This document shows positions 1-12,885 of a stretch of DNA of 64,000 nt, one piece after another. Position numbers and translations under genes: made by a program. Each line of letters starts with the position of its first letter. The first letter of the stretch is position 1. The notes beneath the pieces are model-generated. The model was not told where the DNA came from and made no database searches. It saw nothing but the letters and a program-made list of their open reading frames with translations. Source of the DNA: Kiloniellales bacterium (GTDB lineage Bacteria > Pseudomonadota > Alphaproteobacteria > Kiloniellales > JAKSBE01); assembly GCA_030066685.1 (NCBI GenBank), contig JASJBF010000010.1:62001-126000 (forward strand). Reading direction: 5' to 3'.

Positions 1-230
1 AGGGTCCCGCCGTAGCGGCCCGGCGTCATGCCCGGACGGTCGAGCGGATCGACGAAGGGCGTCTCCGGGATGCGCTCGGCCATCGGCGGCAGCTCGCCGG
101 CCGCGACCCGCTCGGCGAGCAGCGGCGGTTCCTCGGAGGCGCGGGCCGATCCCGGGGCTCCGAGGATCAGCGCGGCGAGCGCGAGGGCCGCCGTCGGCGA
201 GGCGAGCTTGCGTGGGTCCGGTCTGGTCAT
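1..230 (-). CDS. ABC transporter substrate-binding protein, peptide type (3' part missing)
   Basis: Only the first 76 codons are in the window; the gene runs off the left edge. The protein starts with a short basic stretch, a hydrophobic segment rich in Ala and Leu (about residues 13-24) and a likely signal-peptidase site near ARAS. A mature start follows with the run AERIPETPF and then GRYGGT. The GxYGGT motif close to the mature N-terminus is typical of family-5 peptide or nickel binding proteins. The start codon overlaps the stop of the upstream two-domain ATPase as ATGA, so the two are translationally coupled. The ATPase supports a peptide or oligopeptide ABC importer whose permease genes lie beyond the window. 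Ligand unknown. Confidence 0.8.
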   Translation of the reverse strand, partial: MTRPDPRKLASPTAALALAALILGAPGSARASEEPPLLAERVAAGELPPMAERIPETPFVDPLDRPGMTPGRYGGT

Positions 231-2137
231 GATGCTGTCATCTCCACGGTTCCGAGCGCCGGGTCGGCACGTACGAAATGCCCATCGCCCAGGTCGATCA
301 GGTGCGGATGCGTGGATCCGTCGATGGTGTAGGGGGCCGGCCAGTTGGCGGGCTGCGAGGCGCGGCCCTCCATCAGGGCGCTGAGGTCCAGTTGCTGGTC
401 AGGATCCGGCTCGGGCACCGCCGACAGCAGGGCCCGGGTGTAGGGATGCACCGGCCGCTTGAAAAGGGCCGCGCGCGGCGCGATCTCGACCAGCCGACCG
501 CGGCACATCACCGCGATGCGGTCGGCGATGTAGTCGACCACGGCCAGGTTGTGGCTGATGAAGAGATAGGTCAGACCCAGCGCCGCCTTGAGGTCCTTCA
601 GCAGGTTCAGGATCTGGGCCTGGATCGAGACGTCCAGCGCCGAGACCGGCTCGTCGCAGATCAAGACCTCCGGCTTCAGCGCCAGCGCCCGGGCGATGCA
701 GATGCGTTGGCGCTGACCGCCGGAAAAGCTGTGCGGATAGCGCCGGAGATGCCGGCGGTCGAGGCCGACCACATTCATAAGCTCGGCGACGAAGGCCGCC
801 TGCGAGGCCGGATCGCCGATCCCGTGGATGGCCAGCGGCTCACCGATGATCTCGGCCACGGTCATCCTGGGATTGAGCGAGCTGAAGGGATCCTGGAAGA
901 CGTACTGGATCCGCTTGCGGAATTCGGTGAGGGCCGCCCCTTCGAGGCCGAGCATATCGATGTCCCGGCCCCGGTCGTGCCAGGTCACCGCGCCCGAATC
1001 CGGGCTCAGGGCGCGCATGATGATCTTCGACAGGGTCGACTTGCCGCAGCCGCTCTCGCCGACCAGGCCGAGACACTCGCCGCGGCGCAGCTGGAAGGAG
1101 ACGTCGTCGACCGCCAGGATCTCGCTGCGCTCCGCAGACATCCAGCCGTTGCTCTTGCGGGTCTGAAAGCGCTTGGTCAGCGAATCGACGCTTAGAAGCG
1201 GCGCGCCCTCGACGACCGCGTTGGAGTCCGCGCGCCGCAGCTTCATCAGCGCGCTGTCCTCGGCGTGCTCGATCTCGCGGATCGGCACTAGGCGCTCCCC
1301 GACCTCCATGTGGAAGCGCGGCACCGCGCGCAGCAGCGCCTTGAGGTAGGGGTGCTCGGGCCGGCGGAAGATGTCGTCCAGGCTGCCGTGCTCCATGACC
1401 TCGCCGTGGTACATGACCACGACCTCCTCGGCGACGTTGGCGACCACGCCCAGGTCGTGGGTGATCATCAGCACCGCCATCTGCAGCTCCGACTGCAGGT
1501 CGTGCAGCAGCTTCAGGATCTGCGCCTGGATCGTGACGTCGAGCGCTGTGGTCGGCTCGTCGGCGATCAGCAGCGCCGGCCGGCAGATCAGCGCCATGGC
1601 GATCATCGCCCGCTGGCGCAGGCCGCCCGAGAGCTCGAAGGGATAGATGTCGAGAGTCGCCGCCGGGTCGGGAAAGCCGACCAGGCGCAGCATCTCGATC
1701 GCCAGCTCCCGCCCCTCGGGCGGGGTCACGTCGCGGTGCAGGTGCAGGGCCTCGAGGATCTGGCTGCCGACCGTGTGCACCGGCGACAGCGAGGTCATGG
1801 GCTCCTGGAAGATGATCGAGATGCGGCCGCCGCGGACCTGGCGCATTTCCGGCCCGCTGGGATCGAGCGCCGCCAGATCAATCGGCTTCGCGGGCCGGCC
1901 GCTCGCCATCGGGGTTGGGTCGCTGAACAGGATCTGGCCGCCGTCGATATAGGCGGTCCTCGGCAGGATGCCCATGATCGCCTGGCTGACCACCGACTTT
2001 CCGGAGCCGGACTCGCCAACCAGGGCGACGGTCGCGCCGGGCCGCACCCGGAAGGAGGCACCACGGACGGCCTCCAGCCGGCCCTCCGGCAGCCGGAAAG
2101 CGACCCGCAGGTCCTTGACCTGAAGCAGATCCGTCAC
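227..2137 (-). CDS. two-domain peptide ABC transporter ATPase (DppD-DppF / YejF-like fusion)
   Basis: A 636-residue protein with two complete ATP-binding domains that would energise a dipeptide or oligopeptide importer on the cytoplasmic face of the membrane. The first domain shows Walker [10 protein letters not shown], signature [12 protein letters not shown] and Walker B LLIADEPT. The second shows [21 protein letters not shown] and [12 protein letters not shown]. Each domain is followed by an oligopeptide-transporter C-terminal stretch ([12 protein letters not shown] and [12 protein letters not shown]). Fused two-domain ATPases of this type are common in alphaproteobacteria, for example YejF. 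It is followed with a 4-bp ATGA overlap by the substrate-binding gene. All catalytic motifs look intact; the substrate cannot be told from the ATPase. Confidence 0.93.
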
Positions 2138-2163: not shown

Positions 2164-2676
2164 TCAGCCAGGCGCCGTTTCTTCGAAGTCCGGATCGATG
2201 CCCATCGCCAGCAGGTTGCCGGCGGAGGTGGGATCGAGCGAAACCCCGTTCGTCCTGGCGGCCGCCGCCGCCAAGCGAGTGACATCTTCGAATCCTTCTA
2301 GGTCGGATTCAATCTTCATCCTTCGTCCCTGCCCTTTCAGCGAGAGCTGCATGAAGCCGCCGCCGCCGCTGCGGTGCTGCCGGTGGGTGCCGAAATAGCG
2401 CAGGCGAAGGTGTTGCAGGTCCTGCCAGCGTAGGCTTTGGCTGAAGAGATCGCTGCGGAGAATGCCGTCCTGATCCAGCGTGATCTGGGTCATGTGCCGC
2501 TGCAGGGTGCGCAGACCGAACAGCAGGAAGATGACGCAGAGTCCGCCGAACACGATCAGGATGACCGTGCTGATCGGCACCGTAGCCAGGACTCCGATGC
2601 CGACCGCGAGGCCGATTCCCGCCCGCAGATAGTCGCCGAGGATGGCACTAGGCGGATAGCGGTATGTCGTGCTCAT
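2164..2676 (-). CDS. small membrane protein with a PH-like cytoplasmic domain, unknown function
   Basis: 170 residues. Two hydrophobic segments (about residues 20-36 and 38-54) form a hairpin. They are followed by a soluble part with the rhythm of a bacterial PH-like domain (DQDGILRSD, then a LRWQDLQHLRLRYFG strand pair), and an acidic tail. No enzyme motif is visible. It is the last gene of the leftward glycosyltransferase set and its start overlaps the deacetylase gene by 29 bp, so it is probably co-expressed with that set. It lies only 26 bp before the peptide-transporter ATPase, which could be read through from it. Family assignment is tentative. Confidence 0.7.
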   Translation of the reverse strand: MSTTYRYPPSAILGDYLRAGIGLAVGIGVLATVPISTVILIVFGGLCVIFLLFGLRTLQRHMTQITLDQDGILRSDLFSQSLRWQDLQHLRLRYFGTHRQHRSGGGGFMQLSLKGQGRRMKIESDLEGFEDVTRLAAAAARTNGVSLDPTSAGNLLAMGIDPDFEETAPG

Positions 2677-3457
2677 GGCCCTGCTCGATGTCGAAGACGG
2701 CGGCCGCTGTCAAGAGCTCGGCGGCCGGATGGACCGAAAGCGCGCCGAGCAGGCGGTCGAGGAAACGCCAGAGCGCTTCGCCGTGGACCGCGTGGTGAGT
2801 CAGGATGCCGCTGGGCTCCTGCGGGTCGGCCCGGCTCTCGCGCCGCGCCGCGAGGTGGCCGCACAGCAGATCCAGGGCCGCGTCCTCGCCCAAGAAGCCG
2901 CGATCCGGCTTCCAGCGGATCGGATCCAGGTGGCAGTTGACTTGAAGCAGACCCGGCGCCGGCCGGGCCGCTGCCCGGGCCGTGTGGGTCGAGAGACCGC
3001 AAAAGCCCAGGTCCGGCAAGGCGGGCAGCAGCTCGGCGGCGATGCGGTTCCAGGGCGGGACCAGGACCGGCAGCGCGCGGCTCCCGAAGAGCGCGCGCAA
3101 GCGCTCGCGACCCTCGGCCAGCTCGGCCCGCAGCGCAGCGGCCGGCCGCGCCGGTCCCAGCTCGCACTTCTTGCGGTCCTTCGGCTCGTGGTTGCGGTGG
3201 GCGTAGCCGTGCTGCAGCACCGCGACCGTGAGCTCGTCGTGCTGGCGCCCGGCGAGGCTATGGGCCAGCGCCGGCTCGGCGGCGGCCGGAATGACCGCCA
3301 GGGACAGGGGGGCCCGGTGGCGTCCGCAGAGCGCGAGCAGGCGGTCGAGCGCGGGTCCGGGGCGGACCGCGTCGTCGTCGCGCCACCAGAGCGTGGCCCG
3401 GCGGCCCTCGGCCTGCCACAGCTCCAGCTCCCGCTGCAGGGCGTCCCAGCCGGTCAT
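2648..3457 (-). CDS. polysaccharide deacetylase-like protein (NodB-type fold)
   Basis: 269 residues from the ATG that overlaps the upstream glycosyltransferase stop as ATGA; a longer in-frame extension upstream is less likely. WWRDDDAV near the N-terminus supplies the paired Asp residues of carbohydrate esterase family 4, and HGYAHRNH supplies the two metal-binding His residues. VPPWNRI resembles the third motif and LTHHAVHG the C-terminal His motif. No signal peptide is seen, so it would act in the cytoplasm on a lipid-linked or nucleotide-linked sugar rather than on exported polymer (inference). Its position among glycosyltransferases supports a role in making a modified glycan. The substrate is unknown. 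Confidence 0.82.
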   Translation of the reverse strand: MTGWDALQRELELWQAEGRRATLWWRDDDAVRPGPALDRLLALCGRHRAPLSLAVIPAAAEPALAHSLAGRQHDELTVAVLQHGYAHRNHEPKDRKKCELGPARPAAALRAELAEGRERLRALFGSRALPVLVPPWNRIAAELLPALPDLGFCGLSTHTARAAARPAPGLLQVNCHLDPIRWKPDRGFLGEDAALDLLCGHLAARRESRADPQEPSGILTHHAVHGEALWRFLDRLLGALSVHPAAELLTAAAVFDIEQGHEHDIPLSA

Positions 3458-4638
3458 GGCCGCGGCCCCGCTTCGCGCCGGCGTTCGGCCAGGGCGCGGC
3501 CGACCCACGCTGCGCTGGCCTCCGCCCCGCCCAGGTCGACCTCGAAGTCCCGCGGGCCTCTTTCGGCGGCGAGGGCCCGGTCGACCGCCGCGGCCAAGGC
3601 CTGCGGGGTCAGGGCCCGCTCCTCGAGCAGGACCACCACCCCCGCCGCGTCCAGCAACCGGGCACGCATGGTCTGTTCCGCCTCTCCTTCGGCCGCGAAG
3701 GGCACGAGGACCGCGCGTGGCCCCGTGCGCAGCAGGTCCGCGACCGTGTTGTATCCGCCCTGGCTGATCGACAGCCGGGCTTCGGATAGTAGCTCAAGAA
3801 ATCGCGGATGAGCACGCGAAAGCGTTACATTTTCAGGGCATTGCCGTGCCAGCGCGGCCAGCCGCTCGGCCGGGAAGTTGGGGCCGGCGAGCAGGGTCCA
3901 GGGCGCTTCGCGCAGGGCCGAAAGCGGCCGCGCGGCCAGGGCGGCTTCGATGAGGTCCGCGCCCACCGCTCCGCCGCCAGCGGAGACCACGACGCCGCGT
4001 CGCTCGGCCGCCGCCCGAAGCGGCGCGGCGGCCTGCCCCTCGGCGACGTAGCCGGTGTAGACCAGCGCGTCGGCGAAGCCGGCGGCCGCGGGAAAGCTCG
4101 CCTCGAGGGTGACGAAGCGCGGGTCGGCGTGGACCAGCACGGCGTCGAAGAAGCCCTCGACCTGCGCCCTGATCCAGGCCGCGCGCTCGGGCGTCGGCGC
4201 CTTGGAAAGGATGTCGCGCAGTGAGCTCAGGACCAGCGGCCGCGGCCTGGCGGCGCGCGTCGCCTCGAGGAGCGGGATCAGCTCAAAGCGCATCTGGCGC
4301 CGCCCGAAGGGATACATCTCGACGACCAGGGCGTCGGGCCGCAGCGCGCGAAAGGCGGCCAGCAGACGATCCCGGCGCCTTTCGCGCCAGGCCTCGTCGA
4401 TCGGCCGGCCGGCCTCGTCGAGCAGGGCGGAGAAGCTGAGGTCGGCACTGCGCAGGGGCGGCAGCTGGTGCAGGCGGGCCGCCCCGATGTCGAGCCCGGG
4501 CACCGGCAGGCCGCCGGAGACCAGGGTCGTGTCGAGCCCGGCCTCGGCGAGGGCCCGGCAGACCAAGGCGGCCCGCTTGAGGTGGCCAATGCCAAGAAGG
4601 TGCTGGACGTAGAACAGGACCCGAGGGGCGGCGGGCAC
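3454..4638 (-). CDS. MurG-like (GT-B) glycosyltransferase, paralogue of the 7723-8946 gene
   Basis: 394 residues, with a GTG start 2 bp after the phosphatase stop. The N-terminal motif YVQHLLGIGHLKRA corresponds to the Gly-rich loop of MurG-like and GT28-like enzymes. VYTGYV precedes the second Rossmann domain. SQGGYNTVADLL matches the donor-binding loop, and VPFAAEGEAEQ the following conserved segment. The same three motifs occur in the gene at 7723-8946, so the two are paralogues within one cluster. It would transfer a sugar from a nucleotide donor on the cytoplasmic face of the membrane. The stop overlaps the deacetylase start. Donor and acceptor are not recognisable. Confidence 0.85.
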   Translation of the reverse strand: MPAAPRVLFYVQHLLGIGHLKRAALVCRALAEAGLDTTLVSGGLPVPGLDIGAARLHQLPPLRSADLSFSALLDEAGRPIDEAWRERRRDRLLAAFRALRPDALVVEMYPFGRRQMRFELIPLLEATRAARPRPLVLSSLRDILSKAPTPERAAWIRAQVEGFFDAVLVHADPRFVTLEASFPAAAGFADALVYTGYVAEGQAAAPLRAAAERRGVVVSAGGGAVGADLIEAALAARPLSALREAPWTLLAGPNFPAERLAALARQCPENVTLSRAHPRFLELLSEARLSISQGGYNTVADLLRTGPRAVLVPFAAEGEAEQTMRARLLDAAGVVVLLEERALTPQALAAAVDRALAAERGPRDFEVDLGGAEASAAWVGRALAERRREAGPRP

Positions 4639-4640
4639 GT

Positions 4641-5231
4641 TCAGGCCCCGATCAGCGGGATGTTGAGGCGGCCGGGGCTCGGCCGGCCGGCGGGATCGAG
4701 CAGGAACTCCTGGGCGACGCCGTTGCGCAGCTTGACCGGCGGCGGACCCTTCATGTCCCAGCCGGCCGCCAGGGCGTAGATCGCCCGGACCACGCCCTTG
4801 TGCGTGACCGCGACGGTCGGACGCGCGGCGGCGGCGCGTGCCTCCAGGAAGGGAAGCAGACGCCGCTGCAGCTCGCGCGGGCTTTCGCCGCCGGGCGGAC
4901 GGAAATCGAGGCCCCGGGCTTCCAGCTCGGTCATGGCTGGACCCAGCTCGGCGCGCAGGTCGCCCAGGCGCTGCCCCTCCCAGTCGCCCCAGAACATCTC
5001 GGCCAGGCGGGGCTCGATCGCCGCGGCCCCCCGGCCCAGAAGCCCGGCGGTCTCGCGCGCCCGGCCGAGGGGGCTGACGAACCAGAGGGCGTCCTCATAA
5101 CCCTTCGGCAGCCGCCAGGCCGCGACCTCGGCCCGCGCCTCGGGAGTCAGGGGGCTGTCCTTCTGGCCCTGGGTGCGGCCGGTCTGGTTCCAAAGCGTCC
5201 GGCCGTGGCGGATCAGCAGCAGCGGGGTCAT
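4641..5231 (-). CDS. histidine phosphatase family protein (phosphoglycerate mutase-like)
   Basis: 196 residues from the ATG that overlaps the stop of the upstream glycosyltransferase as ATGA. LLIRHGRTLWN carries the phospho-accepting His of the RHG motif, and AVTHKGVVRA carries the second catalytic His. LAEMFWGDWEG corresponds to the E-x-x-xGxWEG segment of the cobC/gpmB branch. The family removes phosphate from sugar phosphates or similar small molecules. Here the gene is embedded between glycosyltransferases with 2-4 bp spacing, so dephosphorylation of a glycan precursor is a reasonable inference. The substrate cannot be read from the sequence. Confidence 0.88.
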   Translation of the reverse strand: MTPLLLIRHGRTLWNQTGRTQGQKDSPLTPEARAEVAAWRLPKGYEDALWFVSPLGRARETAGLLGRGAAAIEPRLAEMFWGDWEGQRLGDLRAELGPAMTELEARGLDFRPPGGESPRELQRRLLPFLEARAAAARPTVAVTHKGVVRAIYALAAGWDMKGPPPVKLRNGVAQEFLLDPAGRPSPGRLNIPLIGA

Positions 5232-6376
5232 GACTCGGCCGCGACGAAGTCGATCCGTGCCTGCCGGAGGATCGCATCCAGGGCGCCGGCCGCGGCGTCG
5301 AGGTCGTGCCCGGCGGCCGTGGCCCCCGCCCCCGCGCGCAGCGCCGCCCGCCGCTCGGGATCGCCGATCAGAGCCCGCAGGGCCGCCGCGAAGGCCTCGA
5401 GGTCGCCCGGCGGGGTCAGCAGGCCGCCCCGGCCCTCGGCGACCACCGCGGCGACCCCGCCGTAGCGTCCGGCGACCACCGGCAGGCCGCTGCCCTGGGC
5501 CTCGAGCAGGGCCATGCCGAAGGCCTCGTTGACCGCCGGCCAGGCGTAGAGATCCGCGGCGGCGAAGATCGCCGGCAGCGCCGCGGCCGGGCGCTCGCCC
5601 AGATAGCGCAGCCGGTCCCGGGGGAGCGCGGCGAAGGCGGCCTCGACCTCGGCCCGGGCGGCGCCGTCGCCGACGATCACCAGCTGCCATTCCAGGTCGG
5701 TCAGGCCGCCCAGGGCCTCGGCCAGGCCGCGATAGGACGCCAGCTTGTCGCCCGGGCGCATCATCGCGACCGCCAGCAGCCACGGACGCCCCGGATCCAG
5801 CCCGCAGGCCGCGGCCAGGGCCGCGCGATGGCGCCCGCGCTCGGCGGCGGCGGCGCGGAAGGGCGCCAGGTCGGCGAAGGGCGCCAGGCTGTGCAGGCGC
5901 CTGACCTGCGGCAGGCCGGGCAGGTCCGCGGGGTTCAGCGCGATCACCGCGGCGGCCTGGTCCAGGGCCGCGAGCGTGGCCTCGTGCCCCGCGGCCCAGG
6001 TCCCGCCGGCGCGCTTGTTGGCGACCGAGGCCTCGGCGGCCACGTAGGGGATGCCGAGGCGGCGGGCCGCGGAAGGGCCGATCCAGTCCGGCGCCTTGTA
6101 GTAGAGGTGATAGGTGAACCACAGCGCGGGCCTCTGGGACGCCGGGCGCGCCAGGCAGCGCGCGGCGTAGCGCTCGGCCAGGCGGGCGCCTAGGGCCCGC
6201 AGGCGCGCCTGGCGCAGCGGGTCGCCCAGCGGATCCCGGCTGCGCAGCCGGCAGGCCAGCTCGACCTCGTGGCCGGCCCGCCTGAGCGCGCTCTGGAACA
6301 ACCCGGCCAGCAGCCGGTCGCCCGAGGGCACGGGATGGTCGGGCGGCTTCAGCGGGGCGTAGAAGGCGACGCGCAC
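5228..6376 (-). CDS. glycosyltransferase family 4-type protein
   Basis: 382 residues if started at the GTG (6376) that gives MRVAFYAPLKPPDHP, the usual opening of family-4 glycosyltransferases. Much longer in-frame extensions exist but run through the coding sequence of the gene upstream. The C-terminal domain has YLGERPAAALPAIFAAADL, then WPAVNEAFGMALLEAQ with the E-x7-E donor-site motif, then GLPVVAGRYGG. It overlaps the upstream glycosyltransferase gene by 28 bp and the phosphatase by 4 bp, so it is an integral part of the leftward operon. The specific sugar is unknown. Confidence 0.87.
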   Translation of the reverse strand: MRVAFYAPLKPPDHPVPSGDRLLAGLFQSALRRAGHEVELACRLRSRDPLGDPLRQARLRALGARLAERYAARCLARPASQRPALWFTYHLYYKAPDWIGPSAARRLGIPYVAAEASVANKRAGGTWAAGHEATLAALDQAAAVIALNPADLPGLPQVRRLHSLAPFADLAPFRAAAAERGRHRAALAAACGLDPGRPWLLAVAMMRPGDKLASYRGLAEALGGLTDLEWQLVIVGDGAARAEVEAAFAALPRDRLRYLGERPAAALPAIFAAADLYAWPAVNEAFGMALLEAQGSGLPVVAGRYGGVAAVVAEGRGGLLTPPGDLEAFAAALRALIGDPERRAALRAGAGATAAGHDLDAAAGALDAILRQARIDFVAAES

Positions 6377-7683
6377 AGCCGCTGCCCCTCCGTCTCTCCT
6401 TCGGGGGCGAGGCCGAAGCGCCGGGCCAGGTCGTCGACGCAGGTCTCCAGGTCGAAGGCCTGGCGCACCCGCCGGGCGCCGGCCTGGCCCAGCCTCCGGC
6501 GCAGGGCCGGGTCGCGGATCAGGCGGTCGAGGGCCGAGGCCAGCGCCGCCGGCGCCTCCGGCGGGACCAGCAGCCCGGTGACCTCCCGGGCGATCAGCTC
6601 GGGAATCGCCGCGACTTCGCTGGCAACGCAGGCCAGGGCCTGGCTCTGCGCCTCGACCAGGACGTTGGGCAGGCCGTCGCGGTCGCCGTTGCCGGCGACG
6701 CGGCTGGCCAGAACGAAGAGGTCCGCGGCGCGGTAGGCCGCCAGGACCTCGGCCTGGGCACGGGGGCCGCGCCACTCGATGCGCCCCTCAAGACCGAGGT
6801 CGCGGGCCAGCCGCCGCAGCTCTTGGCGCAGGGGTCCGCCGCCGATGTGGACCAGGCGCCAGGCGCGCTGGGTCGGCAGCGCGGCAAGGGCCCGCAGGAG
6901 CAGGTCGTAGCCCTTCTTCTCGACCGCCCGGCCCACCGAGAGCAGGATCACCGGCGCCGCGGGATCGCTGCCGTCGCGCCGGCTTGCCGTGGCTTCGGCC
7001 GGTGCCGGGAAGCGCGTGAGGTCGAGCCCGTGGTAGACCAGCGCGACCTCGCCGCCCGCGCCGCTCTCGGCCAGCGCCGTTAGGTGCGCGGCGCCGTAGG
7101 CAGTGCAGGTCACGGTCCAGTCCGCGGCCGCCAGCTTCTCCCGCTTCTCCCAATCGGGCGTGGTCCAGATGTCCTTGGCATGGGCCGAACAGGACCAGGG
7201 CCGGCCGCTCAGCAGGCCGGCGTAGCGGGTCACAGAGGCCGGGGTGTGGATGAAGTGGGCGTGCAGCCGGCCGACCCCGGGATCGAGCTCGGCGGCCAGG
7301 ACCAGCGCCTGGCCGAAGCGCCGGACCCGGTTGGGGGTCCGGTCACGGCGCAGGTCCCGCAGCCAAACCGCCCGGGCGGCGCGGTAGCCGGGCCGGCGCC
7401 GGACCCGCCACCAGGCGCGCAGCACGCGCAAGGGCTCCTGATAGAGGTATTCCGGCAGGTAGAGCAGCGGCGCTTCGATCTCGCGGTGCACCGGATGGAC
7501 CTCCGGGTCCGTCGGATGGCGCAGCGAGACGATGGTGACCTCGAGCCCGCGGCGCTCCAAGGCCCGGATCTCCTGGGCGATGAAGGTCTCGGACAGGCGC
7601 GGATAGCCCTTCAGCACGAAGCCGACCCGGGATCGGGCAACCACGGGCGCCTGCCGGGAGGGGTCTGCAGTCGTGGATGCCAT
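6349..7683 (-). CDS. glycosyltransferase family 4 (exopolysaccharide / colanic-acid type)
   Basis: 444 residues, preceded by AAGGGATTC as ribosome binding site. VGFVLKGYPRLSETFIAQEI is the classic opening of WcaL/ExoL-like family-4 enzymes. LHAHFIHTPASVTRY follows, then the donor domain with LLSVGRAVEKKGYDLLLRA, ASRVAGNGDRDGLPNVLVEA and the terminal GLLVPPEAPAALASAL. These families add sugars to lipid-linked exopolysaccharide repeats at the inner membrane. The gene is second in the leftward operon, 39 bp after the MurG-like gene. Family is certain; donor and acceptor are not. Confidence 0.9.
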   Translation of the reverse strand: MASTTADPSRQAPVVARSRVGFVLKGYPRLSETFIAQEIRALERRGLEVTIVSLRHPTDPEVHPVHREIEAPLLYLPEYLYQEPLRVLRAWWRVRRRPGYRAARAVWLRDLRRDRTPNRVRRFGQALVLAAELDPGVGRLHAHFIHTPASVTRYAGLLSGRPWSCSAHAKDIWTTPDWEKREKLAAADWTVTCTAYGAAHLTALAESGAGGEVALVYHGLDLTRFPAPAEATASRRDGSDPAAPVILLSVGRAVEKKGYDLLLRALAALPTQRAWRLVHIGGGPLRQELRRLARDLGLEGRIEWRGPRAQAEVLAAYRAADLFVLASRVAGNGDRDGLPNVLVEAQSQALACVASEVAAIPELIAREVTGLLVPPEAPAALASALDRLIRDPALRRRLGQAGARRVRQAFDLETCVDDLARRFGLAPEGETEGQRLCASPSTPR

Positions 7684-7722: not shown

Positions 7723-8946
7723 CTAGGAGAAAGCCCCTTGGCGCAACACCGGGAAGGTTTCGACCTCCTTCCGGAGCCAGGGGGCGAGCAGGCCGTTCAC
7801 GTTGTCGAGCCCGTCCAGGAGCCCGGGCACGATCACCTCGGAAGGCCGGTTCTGCTGCGGCAGATCGCGCAGCGCCTGGGCCATGACCGCCGGGTCGCGT
7901 GCGGGGTCCTCGCGCAGCATCCGGGCCAGGCCCAGGTCGTGGGCCCGCTGGGCGCGGATCGTCTGTTCCAGGCGCGGCCGCTCGCGCGGGACGATCAGGG
8001 CCCGCTTGTCGAGCGAGAGGATCTCGCAGAAGGTGTTGTAGCCGCCCATGGCGACCACGCCGGCCGCCTTGGCCATCAGGCTTTCCATATGCGGATCGAA
8101 GGTGATCGCCTCGACCTGATCCAGACGGCCGGCCCGTTCGATGAACTCGGCCTGCTGCTCCGGCGGCATGAAGGGACCGAGGACCAGCAGCGCCGGATGC
8201 GGCAGTTCGCGGTCCGTTTCGTAGGCGCGCAGAACCCAGTCGATCAGGGCCTCGCCGTCGCCGCCGCCGCCGGGCGTGACCAACACGTAGGGCCGGTTGG
8301 TGATGTCGGGCGCCTGGACGCTCTCGGCCTGGCCGACCCGGCGCGGCAGGTACCCGGTATAGACCAGCTTGCGCTCGACCACGCCCGGCAGGTTCATATC
8401 GGCCAGCGGGTTGCAGATCTCCTTCAGCCCGAAGACCCAGATCTCGTCGTAGATGTCGCGCAGCAGCGGCAGCACCTTCTTGCGGCGCCATTCGGGCACC
8501 AGGAGCCGCGGCTCGTCCATCACGTCGCGCAGGCCGAGGATCAGCCGGGTGCCCCGGGTCTTCATCTCGACCAGGGTCTCGGTCACCTCGCCGCGCAGGC
8601 CCTGGGGCTCCTTGTCGACGATGAAGACGTCGGGATCGAAGATCTCCGCCGTGTGACGGATGACCGAGGCCCGCAGCCGCAGGGTTTCCTCGATGTCCAG
8701 GTGAAGGTTCAGCGAGGTGTACTCGCCGTTGCGCAGCTTGATGACGCCGGGAACCCGGACGAAGTCGACGCGGGCGCGGAAGTCGAAGCTGCCGATGATC
8801 GGCGAGCCCGAGAGGATCAGGACCGAAAGGTTCCTGTTGTTGGCGACCAGCGAGTGGGCGATCGTCCGACAGCGCCGCAGGTGCCCGAGGCCAAAGCTGT
8901 CGTGGCTGTAGATCAGGACTCGCGTGTCACGGCGCGACCGTGCCAT
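7723..8946 (-). CDS. MurG-like (GT-B) glycosyltransferase, first gene of leftward operon
   Basis: 407 residues from the ATG at 8946, preceded on the minus strand by GGAGAGGGGGGC; an upstream start gives an unlikely extension. Motifs are YSHDSFGLGHLRRC at the N-terminus, KLVYTGYLPRR before the C-domain, VTPGGGGDG, MGGYNTFCEIL and IVPRERPRLEQ. They match the MurG-like paralogue at 3454-4638 motif for motif. The gene reads away from the aberrant ABC protein gene at 9162, with 215 bp between their starts, so both operons probably share that promoter region. Nucleotide-sugar-dependent glycosyl transfer on the cytoplasmic membrane face is inferred from the fold. Confidence 0.85.
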   Translation of the reverse strand: MARSRRDTRVLIYSHDSFGLGHLRRCRTIAHSLVANNRNLSVLILSGSPIIGSFDFRARVDFVRVPGVIKLRNGEYTSLNLHLDIEETLRLRASVIRHTAEIFDPDVFIVDKEPQGLRGEVTETLVEMKTRGTRLILGLRDVMDEPRLLVPEWRRKKVLPLLRDIYDEIWVFGLKEICNPLADMNLPGVVERKLVYTGYLPRRVGQAESVQAPDITNRPYVLVTPGGGGDGEALIDWVLRAYETDRELPHPALLVLGPFMPPEQQAEFIERAGRLDQVEAITFDPHMESLMAKAAGVVAMGGYNTFCEILSLDKRALIVPRERPRLEQTIRAQRAHDLGLARMLREDPARDPAVMAQALRDLPQQNRPSEVIVPGLLDGLDNVNGLLAPWLRKEVETFPVLRQGAFS

Positions 8947-9161
8947 GCCCCCCTCTCCTTCCCTACCCGGTTGCGACGCCAGACCAAAGACTTGGCCCGC
9001 GCCATCCCTCCATGGGCCAAAACGGAGCAAAGCCTACGCGAGGCGGCGCGGCGAGTCGATTGGGCATTTTTTCGCCTCCGGCGTGGCTGGTTTACCCCCC
9101 CAGGGTGCTCGGCTAAGCTTCGCGGTCGCGGCGGGCGGCCGCTCTCGAGACGGCAGGGCCT

Positions 9162-11882
9162 ATGGAACCCAACCTGTTCAAGTACATCTGGCAGCACAGC
9201 AAGCGGGACCAGCTCTTCATCCTGGTCCTGGTCCTGCTGTCGCTGCCCTTCTACTTCGTCTCGCTGCAGCTGCCGAAGCAGATCGTCAACGACGGCATCG
9301 AGGGCAAGGGCTTCGCCGGTCCCGGCTCGACCCAGAACTTCATGACCATAGACCTGCCTTTCGGCGAAACGCTCTTCGGGCGTCCGGTGACGCTGTTCGA
9401 GGGCTTCGAGTTGGAGCAGATGGCCCTGCTCTTCGCCCTCAGCTTCGCCTTTCTGGGCCTGGTGATCGTGAACGGCATCTTCAAGTTCGTGATCAACACC
9501 TTGAAGGGCCAGCTGGGCGAGCGGATGCTGCGCCGCCTGCGCTACGAGCTGACCGACCGGGTCCTGCGCTTCCGCCTCGCGCAGTTCAAGAAGGTACGGC
9601 AGGCCGAGGTCGCGACCATGGTCAAGGACGAGGTCGAGCCCCTCGGCGGCTTCATCGGCGATGCCTTCATGACCCCGGTGTTCCTCGGCGGCCAGGCCCT
9701 GACCGCCATGACCTTCATCCTGCTCCAGAACGTCTGGCTCGGCAGCGTGGCGGCGGTGATCGTGCTGGTCCAGGCGATCCTGATCCCCAAGCTGCGAGTC
9801 CGGATCCTGGAGCTGGGCCGGCAGCGGCAGCTGGTCAGCCGGCACCTCGCCGGGCGGATCGGCGAACTGGTCGCGGGCGCCACAGAGATCCATGCCCACG
9901 ACACCTCGAACTTCGAGCGGGCGGAGATCTCCCATCGGCTCGGCGTCATCTACCGGATCCGCTACGAGATCTTCAGGCGCAAGTTTTTTGTCAAGTTCCT
10001 CAACAACTTCCTCTCCCAGCTCACGCCCTTCATCTTCTACATGGTCGGCGGCTATCTGGTGATCGTCGAACAGCTCAACATCGGCGCCTTGGTCGCGGTC
10101 ATCGCCGCCTACAAGGACTTGCCGGCGCCCGTGAAGGAGCTGATCGACTGGGACCAGCAGCGCAACGACGTCCAGATCAAGTACGACCAGGTGATCGACC
10201 AGTTCCATCCGCCCGACATGATCGACCCCGAGACCCAGCAGCCCTACAGCGAGAACGTCGGGCCGCTGAGCGGCGAGATCGTGGTCGCCGGCCTCGGCCT
10301 GATCGACGAGAACGGCAACAAGCTGCTCAACGGGGTCAATTTCCGCGCCGGGCTGGAAGAGCACATCGCCGTGGTCGGACAGAGCAACAGCGGCAAGGAC
10401 CACCTGACCATGATGCTGGCCGGCCTGGTGCCGTCGAGCAGCGGGCGCGTGACCCTGGGCGACTACGACCTGCGCAGCCTCGGCCAGTGGATTACCGGGC
10501 GGCGCCTTTCCTACGTCGGCGACGATGCCTATCTCTTTTCCGTGAGCGTCGGTGAAAATCTGCTCTACGGCCTGAAGCACGTGCCCCAGCGCCTGTCCGA
10601 TGCCCTGGACGCGCAGGCGCGCAGCAGCGAGGAGGCGGAGCGCCGCCGGTCGGGCAACATCACCCTGGACATCGCGGACGACTGGATCGACTACGAGGCC
10701 GCCGGCGCCAGCGGCCCCGAGGACCTGCCGGAGCGGATGATCGAGGTCCTGCGCCTGGTCGACCTGGAAGAGGACATCTACGGCTTCGGCCTGCAGGGCA
10801 CCGTCGACCCCAAGGCGCGGCCCAAGCTGGCGGCCGGCCTGCTCCAGGCCCGCGCCGACCTGTCCCGGGTGCTGGCGGAGCGCGGCGCCGGCGACTTGGT
10901 CGTGCGCTTCGATCCGGAGAAGTTCAACGACAACGCCACCCTGGCGGAGAACCTGCTGTTCGGCACGCCGATCGACCCGGCCTACGACGCCGAGAACCTG
11001 CCGCAGAACCCGGTGATCGTCAGCATCCTGAAGAGCGAGGGGTTGCTCGACGACCTGGAGGTCATGGCGGTCAACATCGCCCAGACCATGGTCGAGATCT
11101 TCGCCGACCTGCCGCCGGGCCACCCTTTCTTCGACCAGTTCAGCTTCATCGCCTACGACGATCTGCCGGACTTCCGGGCCCTGATCACGCGCACCGAGAA
11201 GTCCGGCTTCAAGTCGCTGAACGAGGCCGAGAAGGCCCGCTTCCTGGCGCTGCCCTTCCGCTACATCAAGGGCCGGCACCGCCTCGACCTCAGCGAGGAG
11301 TCCTCCGAGAGCTTCGAGGCGCGGATCCTGAAGGCCCGGCACGCGATCTTCGACCGGCTGCTGACCGAGGACGGCAGCGGGCCGGTCGCCTTCTACGATC
11401 CGGCGACCTACAACGCCGCCGCCAGCCTGCAGGACAACATGCTTTTCGGCCGGCTCGCCTTCGGCCGGGCCCAGGCCGCCGAGATCGTCGGCGCCGCGAT
11501 GACCGAGGTGCTGGACACCCTCGGCCTGCGCCGCTCGGTGATCGAGGTCGGGCTCGACTACGACGTCGGCCTGGCCGGCAAGCGCCTGTTCCAGACCCAA
11601 CGTCAGAAGCTCGCCATGGCGCGGGCGATCATCAAGAACCCCGACCTCCTGATCGTCAATCAGGCCTTCGCCGGCATGGACGATGCGACGCGACAGCGGA
11701 TCCTCGACCGCGTGCTGGCGGCACGCAAGGGCCGTGGCGTCATCTGGGCCCTGCAGGACATCGAGAACGCCCGGGTCTTCGACCGGGTGCTGATGATGGA
11801 TGCCGGACGGTTGGTGCGCGAGGGGCGTTTCGAGGACGTGGCCGTGGGCAGGGCAGCCGATGCCCTCGCCGAGACGGGATAA
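9162..11882 (+). CDS. aberrant ABC transporter-like protein with degenerate, internally repeated ATPase domain
   Basis: 906 residues, far longer than a normal half-transporter (about 580-620). The N-terminal 320 residues carry about five or six membrane segments (for example 17-38, 88-113, 170-210 and 285-318) of exporter type. The ATPase domain starts near residue 355. Its Walker A is GQSNSGKD (406-413), with Asp where Ser/Thr is required. The signature is replaced by LFQTQ (809-813), Walker B ends in Asn-Gln (833-834) instead of Asp-Glu, and the switch His is absent (IWALQD). Between Walker A and the signature lie about 400 residues instead of about 100. They contain three copies of a segment ending ENLLYG, ENLLFG and DNMLFG (465, 596, 758). 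Cyclic-nucleotide-binding and methyltransferase genes follow. Active transport by ATP hydrolysis is doubtful. Confidence 0.88.
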   Translation: MEPNLFKYIWQHSKRDQLFILVLVLLSLPFYFVSLQLPKQIVNDGIEGKGFAGPGSTQNFMTIDLPFGETLFGRPVTLFEGFELEQMALLFALSFAFLGLVIVNGIFKFVINTLKGQLGERMLRRLRYELTDRVLRFRLAQFKKVRQAEVATMVKDEVEPLGGFIGDAFMTPVFLGGQALTAMTFILLQNVWLGSVAAVIVLVQAILIPKLRVRILELGRQRQLVSRHLAGRIGELVAGATEIHAHDTSNFERAEISHRLGVIYRIRYEIFRRKFFVKFLNNFLSQLTPFIFYMVGGYLVIVEQLNIGALVAVIAAYKDLPAPVKELIDWDQQRNDVQIKYDQVIDQFHPPDMIDPETQQPYSENVGPLSGEIVVAGLGLIDENGNKLLNGVNFRAGLEEHIAVVGQSNSGKDHLTMMLAGLVPSSSGRVTLGDYDLRSLGQWITGRRLSYVGDDAYLFSVSVGENLLYGLKHVPQRLSDALDAQARSSEEAERRRSGNITLDIADDWIDYEAAGASGPEDLPERMIEVLRLVDLEEDIYGFGLQGTVDPKARPKLAAGLLQARADLSRVLAERGAGDLVVRFDPEKFNDNATLAENLLFGTPIDPAYDAENLPQNPVIVSILKSEGLLDDLEVMAVNIAQTMVEIFADLPPGHPFFDQFSFIAYDDLPDFRALITRTEKSGFKSLNEAEKARFLALPFRYIKGRHRLDLSEESSESFEARILKARHAIFDRLLTEDGSGPVAFYDPATYNAAASLQDNMLFGRLAFGRAQAAEIVGAAMTEVLDTLGLRRSVIEVGLDYDVGLAGKRLFQTQRQKLAMARAIIKNPDLLIVNQAFAGMDDATRQRILDRVLAARKGRGVIWALQDIENARVFDRVLMMDAGRLVREGRFEDVAVGRAADALAETG

Positions 11883-11905
11883 AAAGAAGCTAAAGGAGAC
11901 AGGCC

Positions 11906-12355
11906 ATGGGCTTGGCACAAGAGGTCGAGATCCTCAGAAGGATCCCGCTCTTTGCGAACATCGATCCGGCGAAGCTGAAGCTCATGTGCTTTGCCAGCGA
12001 GCGGGTGACCTTCAAGGACGGCGAGGTGCTGTGCCGCCAGGGCGAGACGGGGGACTCGGCCTTCATCATCCTGGACGGCACGGCGGACGTCCAGGTGAAG
12101 CGCAAGGAAGGCACGATGAGCGTGGCGACCTTGACCAAGAACGACATCGTCGGCGAGATCGCGATCCTCTGCGACGTGCCCCGGACCGCCACCGTATTGG
12201 CCAAGGGCGAGCTGACCACCCTCAAGGTGACCAAGGAGCTCTTCTTCGGCCTGGTCAAGGACTTCCCGGAGATCGGCATCGAGATCATGCGCGTGCTGGC
12301 GCATCGCCTGGAGGCGACCACCGGAGAGCTGATCGCCGCCAAGGCCGGCGCCTGA
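11906..12355 (+). CDS. stand-alone cyclic nucleotide-binding domain protein (Crp-type, no DNA-binding part)
   Basis: 149 residues with a good ribosome site (AAAGGAGACAGGCC before ATG), starting 23 bp after the ABC-like gene. The fold is a single cNMP-binding beta-barrel: RIPLFANIDPAKLKL, FKDGEVLCRQGETGDSAFIIL, then the phosphate-binding cassette region VGEIAILCDVPRTATV. The cassette has the E and R seen in functional cNMP sites (GEIAILCD..RTA). A C-terminal helix follows (GIEIMRVLAHRLEATTGEL) but there is no helix-turn-helix. It therefore cannot act as a Crp-type transcription factor alone. It is more likely a regulatory subunit, probably for the upstream membrane protein (inference from adjacency). 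Confidence 0.87.
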   Translation: MGLAQEVEILRRIPLFANIDPAKLKLMCFASERVTFKDGEVLCRQGETGDSAFIILDGTADVQVKRKEGTMSVATLTKNDIVGEIAILCDVPRTATVLAKGELTTLKVTKELFFGLVKDFPEIGIEIMRVLAHRLEATTGELIAAKAGA

Positions 12356-12390
12356 ACCTGCGGGCGCGAAAGGCCGGGCCGGGTGCGCAG

Positions 12391-12885
12391 ATGAGCCGCC
12401 TGGACAGCGCGATCCGCCGGCTGCAGGCGCAGCGGGCCTGCATCGACCACGCCGCCGCAGCCATTGCCGATCTGTCGGGTCCGGTGCTGGAACTGGGGCT
12501 CGGCAACGGCCGGACCTACGACCACTTGCGCAGCCGCCTGCCGGATCGCGAGATCTTCGTCTTCGAGCGCGAGGTCGCCGCCCATCCGGACTGCGTGCCG
12601 CCGCCCTCCTGCCTGATCCTCGGCGACTTTGCCGAAACCCTGCCCAAGGCGGCAGAGCGCTTCGCCGCCGCGGTGTCCTTGGCGCATGCCGACGTCGGCT
12701 CCGGCGATCCGGCGGCCAGCCGGCGCTCGGCCGGCCTGGTCGCGCGCTTTCTCCCGTCCATGCTGCGGCCGGGTGGTCTGCTGCTCTGCGAACTGGCGCT
12801 CGAGGTGCCAACGCTGGAGCGCCTGCCCATGCCGGAGGGCATCGCGGCCGAGCGCTACTTCTACTACCGCAGGCCGTCAGCCTAG
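12391..12885 (+). CDS. small class I SAM-dependent methyltransferase
   Basis: 164 residues. VLELGLGNGRTYDHL is the SAM-binding motif I (E-x-G-x-G-x-G). IFVFEREVAAHP supplies the acidic residue at the end of strand 2, LILGDFAETLP resembles motif II and MLRPGGLLLCE the post-motif. The length of about 160 residues fits a short alphaproteobacterial methyltransferase family (Methyltransf_17-like; assigned from memory). The ATG at 12391 is 35 bp after the cyclic-nucleotide protein, so all three genes read as one operon. The stop lies inside the last codons of xthA on the other strand, a 9-bp tail-to-tail overlap. Substrate unknown. Confidence 0.8.
   Translation: MSRLDSAIRRLQAQRACIDHAAAAIADLSGPVLELGLGNGRTYDHLRSRLPDREIFVFEREVAAHPDCVPPPSCLILGDFAETLPKAAERFAAAVSLAHADVGSGDPAASRRSAGLVARFLPSMLRPGGLLLCELALEVPTLERLPMPEGIAAERYFYYRRPSA

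Follow-up and report, generated by a model that had tools for sequence, protein, structure and literature searches.

In a 64,000-nucleotide stretch of a Kiloniellales genome (the window), our analysis identified an ABC-exporter-like protein, here called pseudo-ABC, that retains the exporter fold, has lost the catalytic motifs of its ATPase domain, carries a triplicated and conserved repeat within that domain, shows constraint on its membrane domain and has a near-obligatory partner with an intact ligand cassette. We interpret it as an exporter or gate for envelope glycan that is independent of ATP hydrolysis and controlled by a cyclic nucleotide, a reading in which control and substrate are both inferred and which we give about an even chance of being correct. 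Positions of the features are collected in Table 1.

Table 1 Features of the pseudo-ABC locus, in window positions (aa, residues of the encoded protein)
Feature	Positions	Strand	Evidence
Pseudo-ABC exporter, whole ORF, 906 aa	9162..11882	+	ORF from ATG; PF00664 1.8e-12, PF00005 1e-10
Membrane domain, aa 5-347, type IV ABC-exporter fold	9174..10202	+	AlphaFold2 model, VIA-align to exporters, conservation
Degenerate Walker A GQSNSGKD, aa 406-413 (G406, K412, D413)	10377..10400	+	Alignment of 145
Repeat 1, helical subdomain, aa 446-579, ENLLYG at 10554-10571	10497..10898	+	hhalign, shuffle control
Repeat 2, aa 580-741, ENLLFG at 10947-10964	10899..11384	+	hhalign against repeat 3, separate model
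Repeat 3 and remaining NBD core, aa 742-850, DNMLFG at 11433-11450	11385..11711	+	Profile comparison, full NBD fold
Degenerate signature LFQTQ, aa 809-813	11586..11600	+	Alignment of 145
Degenerate Walker B LLIVNQ, aa 829-834 (N833, Q834)	11646..11663	+	Alignment of 145
Switch position, Gln865 replacing His	11754..11756	+	Alignment of 145
Cyclic-nucleotide-binding partner, 149 aa, just downstream of pseudo-ABC gene	11906..12355	+	PF00027 5e-18
Phosphate-binding cassette of partner, GEIAILCDVPRTATV	12152..12196	+	Gly/Glu/Arg conservation
SAM methyltransferase (Methyltransf_17), after partner gene, start approximate	12361..12885	+	PF12692 5.9e-55; 40/113 loci
Divergent glycosyltransferase, GT28-like C-terminal domain	7723..9030	-	PF04101 8.8e-10; 80/113 loci
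Glycosyltransferase group 1	6349..7683	-	PF00534 5.8e-33; 78/113 loci
Glycosyltransferase group 1, start approximate	5231..6310	-	PF13692 1.7e-24; 73/113 loci
Histidine phosphatase family protein	4641..5228	-	PF00300 6.5e-38; 37/113 loci
Glycosyltransferase, GT28-like C-terminal domain	3454..4638	-	PF04101 9.6e-13; 68/113 loci
Polysaccharide-deacetylase-like protein, tentative	2648..3508	-	DUF2334 PF10096 0.0089, below cutoff; 51/113 loci
Opp-type importer ATPase	227..2137	-	59-60% identity to OppDF beside R. johnstonii 3841 relative

Both halves of an exporter were recognized by Pfam, with PF00664 matching residues 93–314 and PF00005 split by a long insert, its best stretch lying at residues 389–487. 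Solved exporter structures matched residues 86–471 and 799–893 in phmmer searches, and an AlphaFold2 model of the whole protein (mean pLDDT 84, pTM 0.79) retained the ABC ATPase fold, with 237 residues between model positions 367 and 903 aligning to the nucleotide-binding domain (NBD) of ComA at an rmsd of 1.9 Å (VIA-align). The criterion for a type IV ABC exporter fold, a six-helix membrane domain followed by an ATPase-fold domain, was met by the two Pfam matches above cutoff and by VIA-align matches to exporters and to the ComA NBD. The linker from TM6 to the ATPase domain (window 10107–10205, residues 316–348), AYKDLPAPVKELIDWDQQRNDVQIKYDQVIDQF, was among the best-conserved stretches, and its residues 323–332 were modelled with very low confidence despite their conserved surroundings. 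An open frame of 1001 codons runs antisense to the pseudo-ABC gene (window 8913–11918, minus strand) and, rather than being a gene, most probably arises from the G+C-rich codon usage.

An earlier note, made from the sequence alone, had described an ATPase site that looked dead, and its observations held on re-examination: Asp413 occupies the place of the Walker A Ser/Thr, the signature at residues 809–813 reads LFQTQ, Walker B ends in N833 and Q834, Q865 stands in place of the switch His, and 397 residues separate the Walker A Lys from the signature, where about 400 had been estimated. Canonical motifs at the same places in homologues, which would have refuted that description, were not seen. 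We assessed five catalytic residues (Walker A Lys, Walker A Ser/Thr, Walker B Asp, Walker B Glu and switch His) in an alignment of 145 distinct family members, and no member kept all five (none were kept in 48 members, one in 33, two in 51, three in 7 and four in 6). The Walker A Ser/Thr position was Glu in 75 members and Asp in 45, and hence acidic in 120/145; the Walker A Lys was kept in 76 and replaced by Ala or Arg in 57; position 833, that of the Walker B Asp, held Asn in 108 and Asp in 18; and the catalytic Glu and the switch His were kept in 59 and 19 members, respectively. LSGGQ was absent from the 15 commonest signature forms of the family, the most frequent being LPATQ and LTGGQ. The criterion for an active ABC ATPase (GK[ST], Walker B Asp and Glu, LSGGQ and switch His) was not met by the pseudo-ABC protein and was complete in none of the 145 members. 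Since canonical Walker A and Walker B motifs were present in seven further exporter genes of this genome, with signature and switch patterns also matched in most, the losses are specific to pseudo-ABC. Leftover catalytic residues were scattered on the membrane-domain tree at close to shuffled-label values (Ser/Thr413, 6 changes over 7 rows; Asp833, 11 over 13), as expected without catalytic selection. These motif data make a dead ATPase well supported, with the loss of ATP binding and hydrolysis being inferred in the absence of biochemistry; four of the five residues survive in six members, so weak ATP binding may persist in some.

Three segments marked by ENLLYG (residue 465), ENLLFG (596) and DNMLFG (758), with spacings of 131 and 162 residues, had led to the suggestion that a post-Q-loop piece of the ATPase was duplicated twice. 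Positions and spacings were reproduced and the repetition proved real, the repeated unit being larger than suggested: it spans the Q-loop strand, helices and a signature-like helix, which together make up the helical (ABC-alpha) subdomain. Family-wide profile–profile comparison with hhalign gave E values of 4.7e-7 (repeats 1 and 2), 4.7e-6 (1 and 3) and 1.4e-14 (2 and 3), with scores of 42, 37 and 83 compared to no more than 22 in 30 column shuffles per pair and no more than 16 with reversed profiles. In the AlphaFold2 model, each unit consists of a strand, a short helix at N-[LIM]-L-[FY]-G, more helices and a long helix that matches the signature helix. Repeats 1 and 2 modelled alone reached a pLDDT of 82. 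No Pfam family covered the insert and its model had no significant match by Foldseek alone; by VIA-align the top 15 rows were all ABC ATPases at the equivalent region. Repeat 2 in the separate model aligned to the segment from post-Q-loop to signature helix of ABC NBDs with Z up to 5.7 and rmsd 2.4–2.6 (MsbA 426–498, Z 4.6; CFTR 494–566, Z 5.7). We conclude that the helical subdomain of the pseudo-ABC ATPase is triplicated, because the profile comparison and the fold match of repeat 2 both indicate it, the structural part having modest Z scores and agreeing with independent sequence evidence. The insert is not confined to this protein, all three repeats being present across the family.

Purifying selection was apparent in every region (dN/dS 0.08–0.17), consistent with the previous inference that the long open frame does not reflect pseudogene decay. 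Compared with two relatives at 92–93% identity, dN/dS was 0.08–0.09 in the membrane domain, 0.12–0.14 in the insert and 0.14–0.17 in the ATPase core. At equal divergence (mean identity 0.46 in the pseudo-ABC family and 0.45 in MsbA-type exporters), conservation in the family was 0.724 for the membrane domain and 0.599 for the NBD core, while in 28 MsbA-type exporters of the class it was 0.585 for the membrane domain and 0.702 for the ATPase. Conservation is inverted relative to MsbA-type exporters, and the membrane domain is held tightest by selection; many charged and polar residues between positions 104 and 348 are invariant.

Relatives were found at E <= 1e-60 in 130 of 385 sampled alphaproteobacterial genomes, representing 86 of 277 genera. 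Whole-genome searches covered Pseudomonadota only, and among the 398 genomes sampled, matches at E <= 1e-80 occurred only in Alphaproteobacteria. Plasmid records added family members from Rhizobium, Sinorhizobium, Azospirillum, Ruegeria, Sulfitobacter and others. Three relatives with 50–52% identity (L056, L057 and L058) were on contigs labelled as Betaproteobacteria MAGs, and horizontal transfer and misbinning could not be resolved. The annotation given to family members in public databases is ‘ABC transporter ATP-binding protein’ or ‘ABC transporter transmembrane domain-containing protein’, and the open-access literature, to which the search was confined without subscription journals, yielded no description of the family. 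The sole mention found that possibly concerns a relative is SMb20813, named as the S. meliloti msbA homologue (PMC10945364); from the numbering of locus tags, we guess that this is the S. meliloti relative at pSymB 841684–844435.

A structural or regulatory role for the ATPase fold, as the earlier note proposed, fits these results. The strongest hint of the type of regulation had been missed, namely that the next gene encodes a cyclic-nucleotide-binding domain, which is fused to pseudo-ABC in some lineages. Among 113 loci having at least 8 kb, this partner gene was next to pseudo-ABC in 99 and the domain was fused at the pseudo-ABC C terminus in 12 more, so that 111/113 carried it, a finding that is new here. 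The gap between the two genes had a median of 34 bp and was 300 bp or shorter in 98 of the 99, and L128 and L144 were the only two of the 113 loci in which no cyclic-nucleotide-binding domain was detected close to the pseudo-ABC gene. The partner gene met the criterion for such a domain (PF00027 and a Gly-Glu ... Arg-Thr-Ala cassette), and the cassette was intact across loci (Gly 111/111, Glu 106/111, Arg 111/111), in contrast to the lost ATP site of the neighbouring pseudo-ABC; no DNA-binding domain was matched in the partner by Pfam. A cyclic-nucleotide-binding partner is thus well supported, the binding itself being predicted without binding data. On the membrane-domain tree the fused form required 1–2 changes, such that one origin is not excluded and gain cannot be distinguished from loss. 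Apparent fusions in L126 and L133 were rejected as overlapping reading frames. Two genomes each held two diverged fused copies (L117 and L118 in one, L119 and L120 in the other), in which the ATPase motifs were almost wholly lost.

The neighbourhood of the pair included a class III cyclase gene in R. johnstonii 3841, R. leguminosarum, S. meliloti, Mesorhizobium and several other lineages (L058, L133, L135, L140). The window’s own genome is a weaker case, with a cyclase-domain gene (PF00211, 1.5e-8) ~15 kb off, beyond an Opp-type importer. Adjacency could be due to chance for some cyclases, because certain neighbours were only weakly similar (~25–30% identity) and as many as 28 putative cyclase genes are present in S. 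meliloti alone (PMC10127613). By analogy, the ligand of the partner need not be cAMP or cGMP, since in HetC the corresponding similar domain was found to bind ppGpp in vitro (PMC10986499).

The strand opposite to pseudo-ABC carries four glycosyltransferase genes in a row with those for a histidine phosphatase and a deacetylase-like protein, and genes of this glycosyltransferase cluster recurred in about two-thirds of loci with rearranged order. Fused members (e.g. Ruegeria, L127, L134) sit outside the cluster, which weakens the glycan reading, and the glycan link of pseudo-ABC is therefore common but not universal. An Opp-type peptide importer operon was conserved beside the cluster in Rhizobium, Sinorhizobium, Azospirillum and the window’s genome for reasons that remain unexplained; here OppA, OppB and OppC (binding protein and permeases) are just outside the window at C10:58073-62230 (L184).

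The best NCBIfam match was to MsbA-type lipid A exporters (TIGR02203), which likewise have a type IV membrane domain and a C-terminal ABC ATPase. Pseudo-ABC differs from MsbA in its lost catalytic motifs, triplicated helical subdomain, cyclic-nucleotide partner and inverted domain conservation, and with 147 bits compared to a cutoff of 602 it did not meet the MsbA equivalog criterion. MsbA2 of S. meliloti (SMb21191) resembles pseudo-ABC in being exporter-like and located beside glycosyltransferases, on pSymB (PMC3687685); it was rejected as the same gene, the relative lying at pSymB 841684–844435 and the msbA2 operon at ~938 kb. HetC of Nostoc is an ABC exporter fused to a cyclic-nucleotide-binding domain that is required in vivo, and has this domain at its N terminus together with a C39 peptidase and an ATPase with an essential catalytic residue (PMC10986499), whereas in pseudo-ABC the domain is C-terminal or separate and the ATPase motifs are lost. 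No peptidase was matched in pseudo-ABC by Pfam, and the criterion for a HetC-like peptidase exporter was not met. SbmA/BacA (SLiPT) has an ABC-exporter-like membrane domain that works without ATP, by a proton gradient (PMC13316013), and lacks an ATPase domain and coupling helices, whereas pseudo-ABC has an ATPase-fold domain, and an elaborated one; the SLiPT criterion (membrane domain that lacks both ATPase domain and coupling helices) was not met. As analogies, SbmA offers a precedent for an exporter-like membrane domain working without ATP and HetC one for control of an exporter by a cyclic-nucleotide-binding domain, but neither combines its feature with a retained dead ATPase domain. SUR and CFTR are ABC proteins that act as regulators or gates and not as pumps, and they still bind ATP at sites that are at least partly canonical, whereas pseudo-ABC has lost the catalytic set.

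In the mechanism that we propose, the ATPase domain has kept its fold while its chemistry was lost and its helical subdomain triplicated, and the partner would dock on this enlarged ATPase-like platform, an inference for which the interface was not modelled. Cyclic nucleotide binding at the partner, rather than ATP hydrolysis, would shift the dimer and hence the membrane domain. The divergent glycosyltransferase cluster may produce the cargo, which would be a glycan or glycolipid, and the cargo may move through gating or be driven by a different source of energy, for example the proton gradient; cargo and energy source have less support and are the least certain part of the mechanism. We put forward only tentatively the broader idea of a widespread class of transporters or gates that evolved when an ABC exporter exchanged ATP for a cyclic nucleotide as its effector, with the ATPase domain as an enlarged, triplicated docking platform, the cyclic-nucleotide-binding partner as the switch and a cyclase nearby.

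The dead ATPase, the cyclic-nucleotide partner and the co-location with glycosyltransferases would also suit a membrane scaffold or sensor that transports nothing, a frozen exporter fold through which cyclic-nucleotide signals reach the glycosyltransferases or some other membrane complex. However, the membrane domain is the best-conserved part, and its invariant charged and polar residues suggest a working path or moving gate; a binding surface could be conserved as well, and we regard the scaffold as unlikely without dismissing it. Degenerate-site heterodimeric exporters were among the best structural matches of the model, as would be expected if pseudo-ABC supplied the degenerate half to an ATP-driven heterodimer, comparable to TM287/288, TmrAB or TAP, whose canonical half is encoded elsewhere. 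Known degenerate halves nevertheless keep the Walker A Ser/Thr and Walker B Asp, which the pseudo-ABC family has lost, and the signature motif is also broken, so that pseudo-ABC could hardly complete the ATP site of a partner. It did not meet the criterion for such heterodimers, an intact signature given to a co-encoded canonical partner, and no exporter half-transporter gene was found among the recurrent neighbours of pseudo-ABC loci, making this explanation improbable.

We see a similarly slim chance that the protein still binds ATP, does not hydrolyse it and is gated by it in the manner of CFTR or SUR. The NBD fold is intact and about half of the members keep the Walker A Lys, but the substitutions at that Lys (57/145) and the acidic residue in place of the Mg-coordinating Ser/Thr (120/145) count against it. 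Motif loss on its own could resemble a decaying gene or a sequencing artefact, an explanation already refuted and for practical purposes ruled out by intact frames across the class, dN/dS of ~0.14 and losses that recur identically in all relatives.

Textbooks present ABC exporters as machines driven by ATP. A conserved family found in symbionts including Sinorhizobium, Rhizobium and Mesorhizobium appears to drop ATP hydrolysis yet keep and enlarge the ATPase fold, and the family is tied to a cyclic-nucleotide sensor. The family thereby poses a testable question about the rewiring of an ABC exporter scaffold from a fuel-driven pump to a ligand-controlled device, and may offer a membrane target for the many cyclases of rhizobia.
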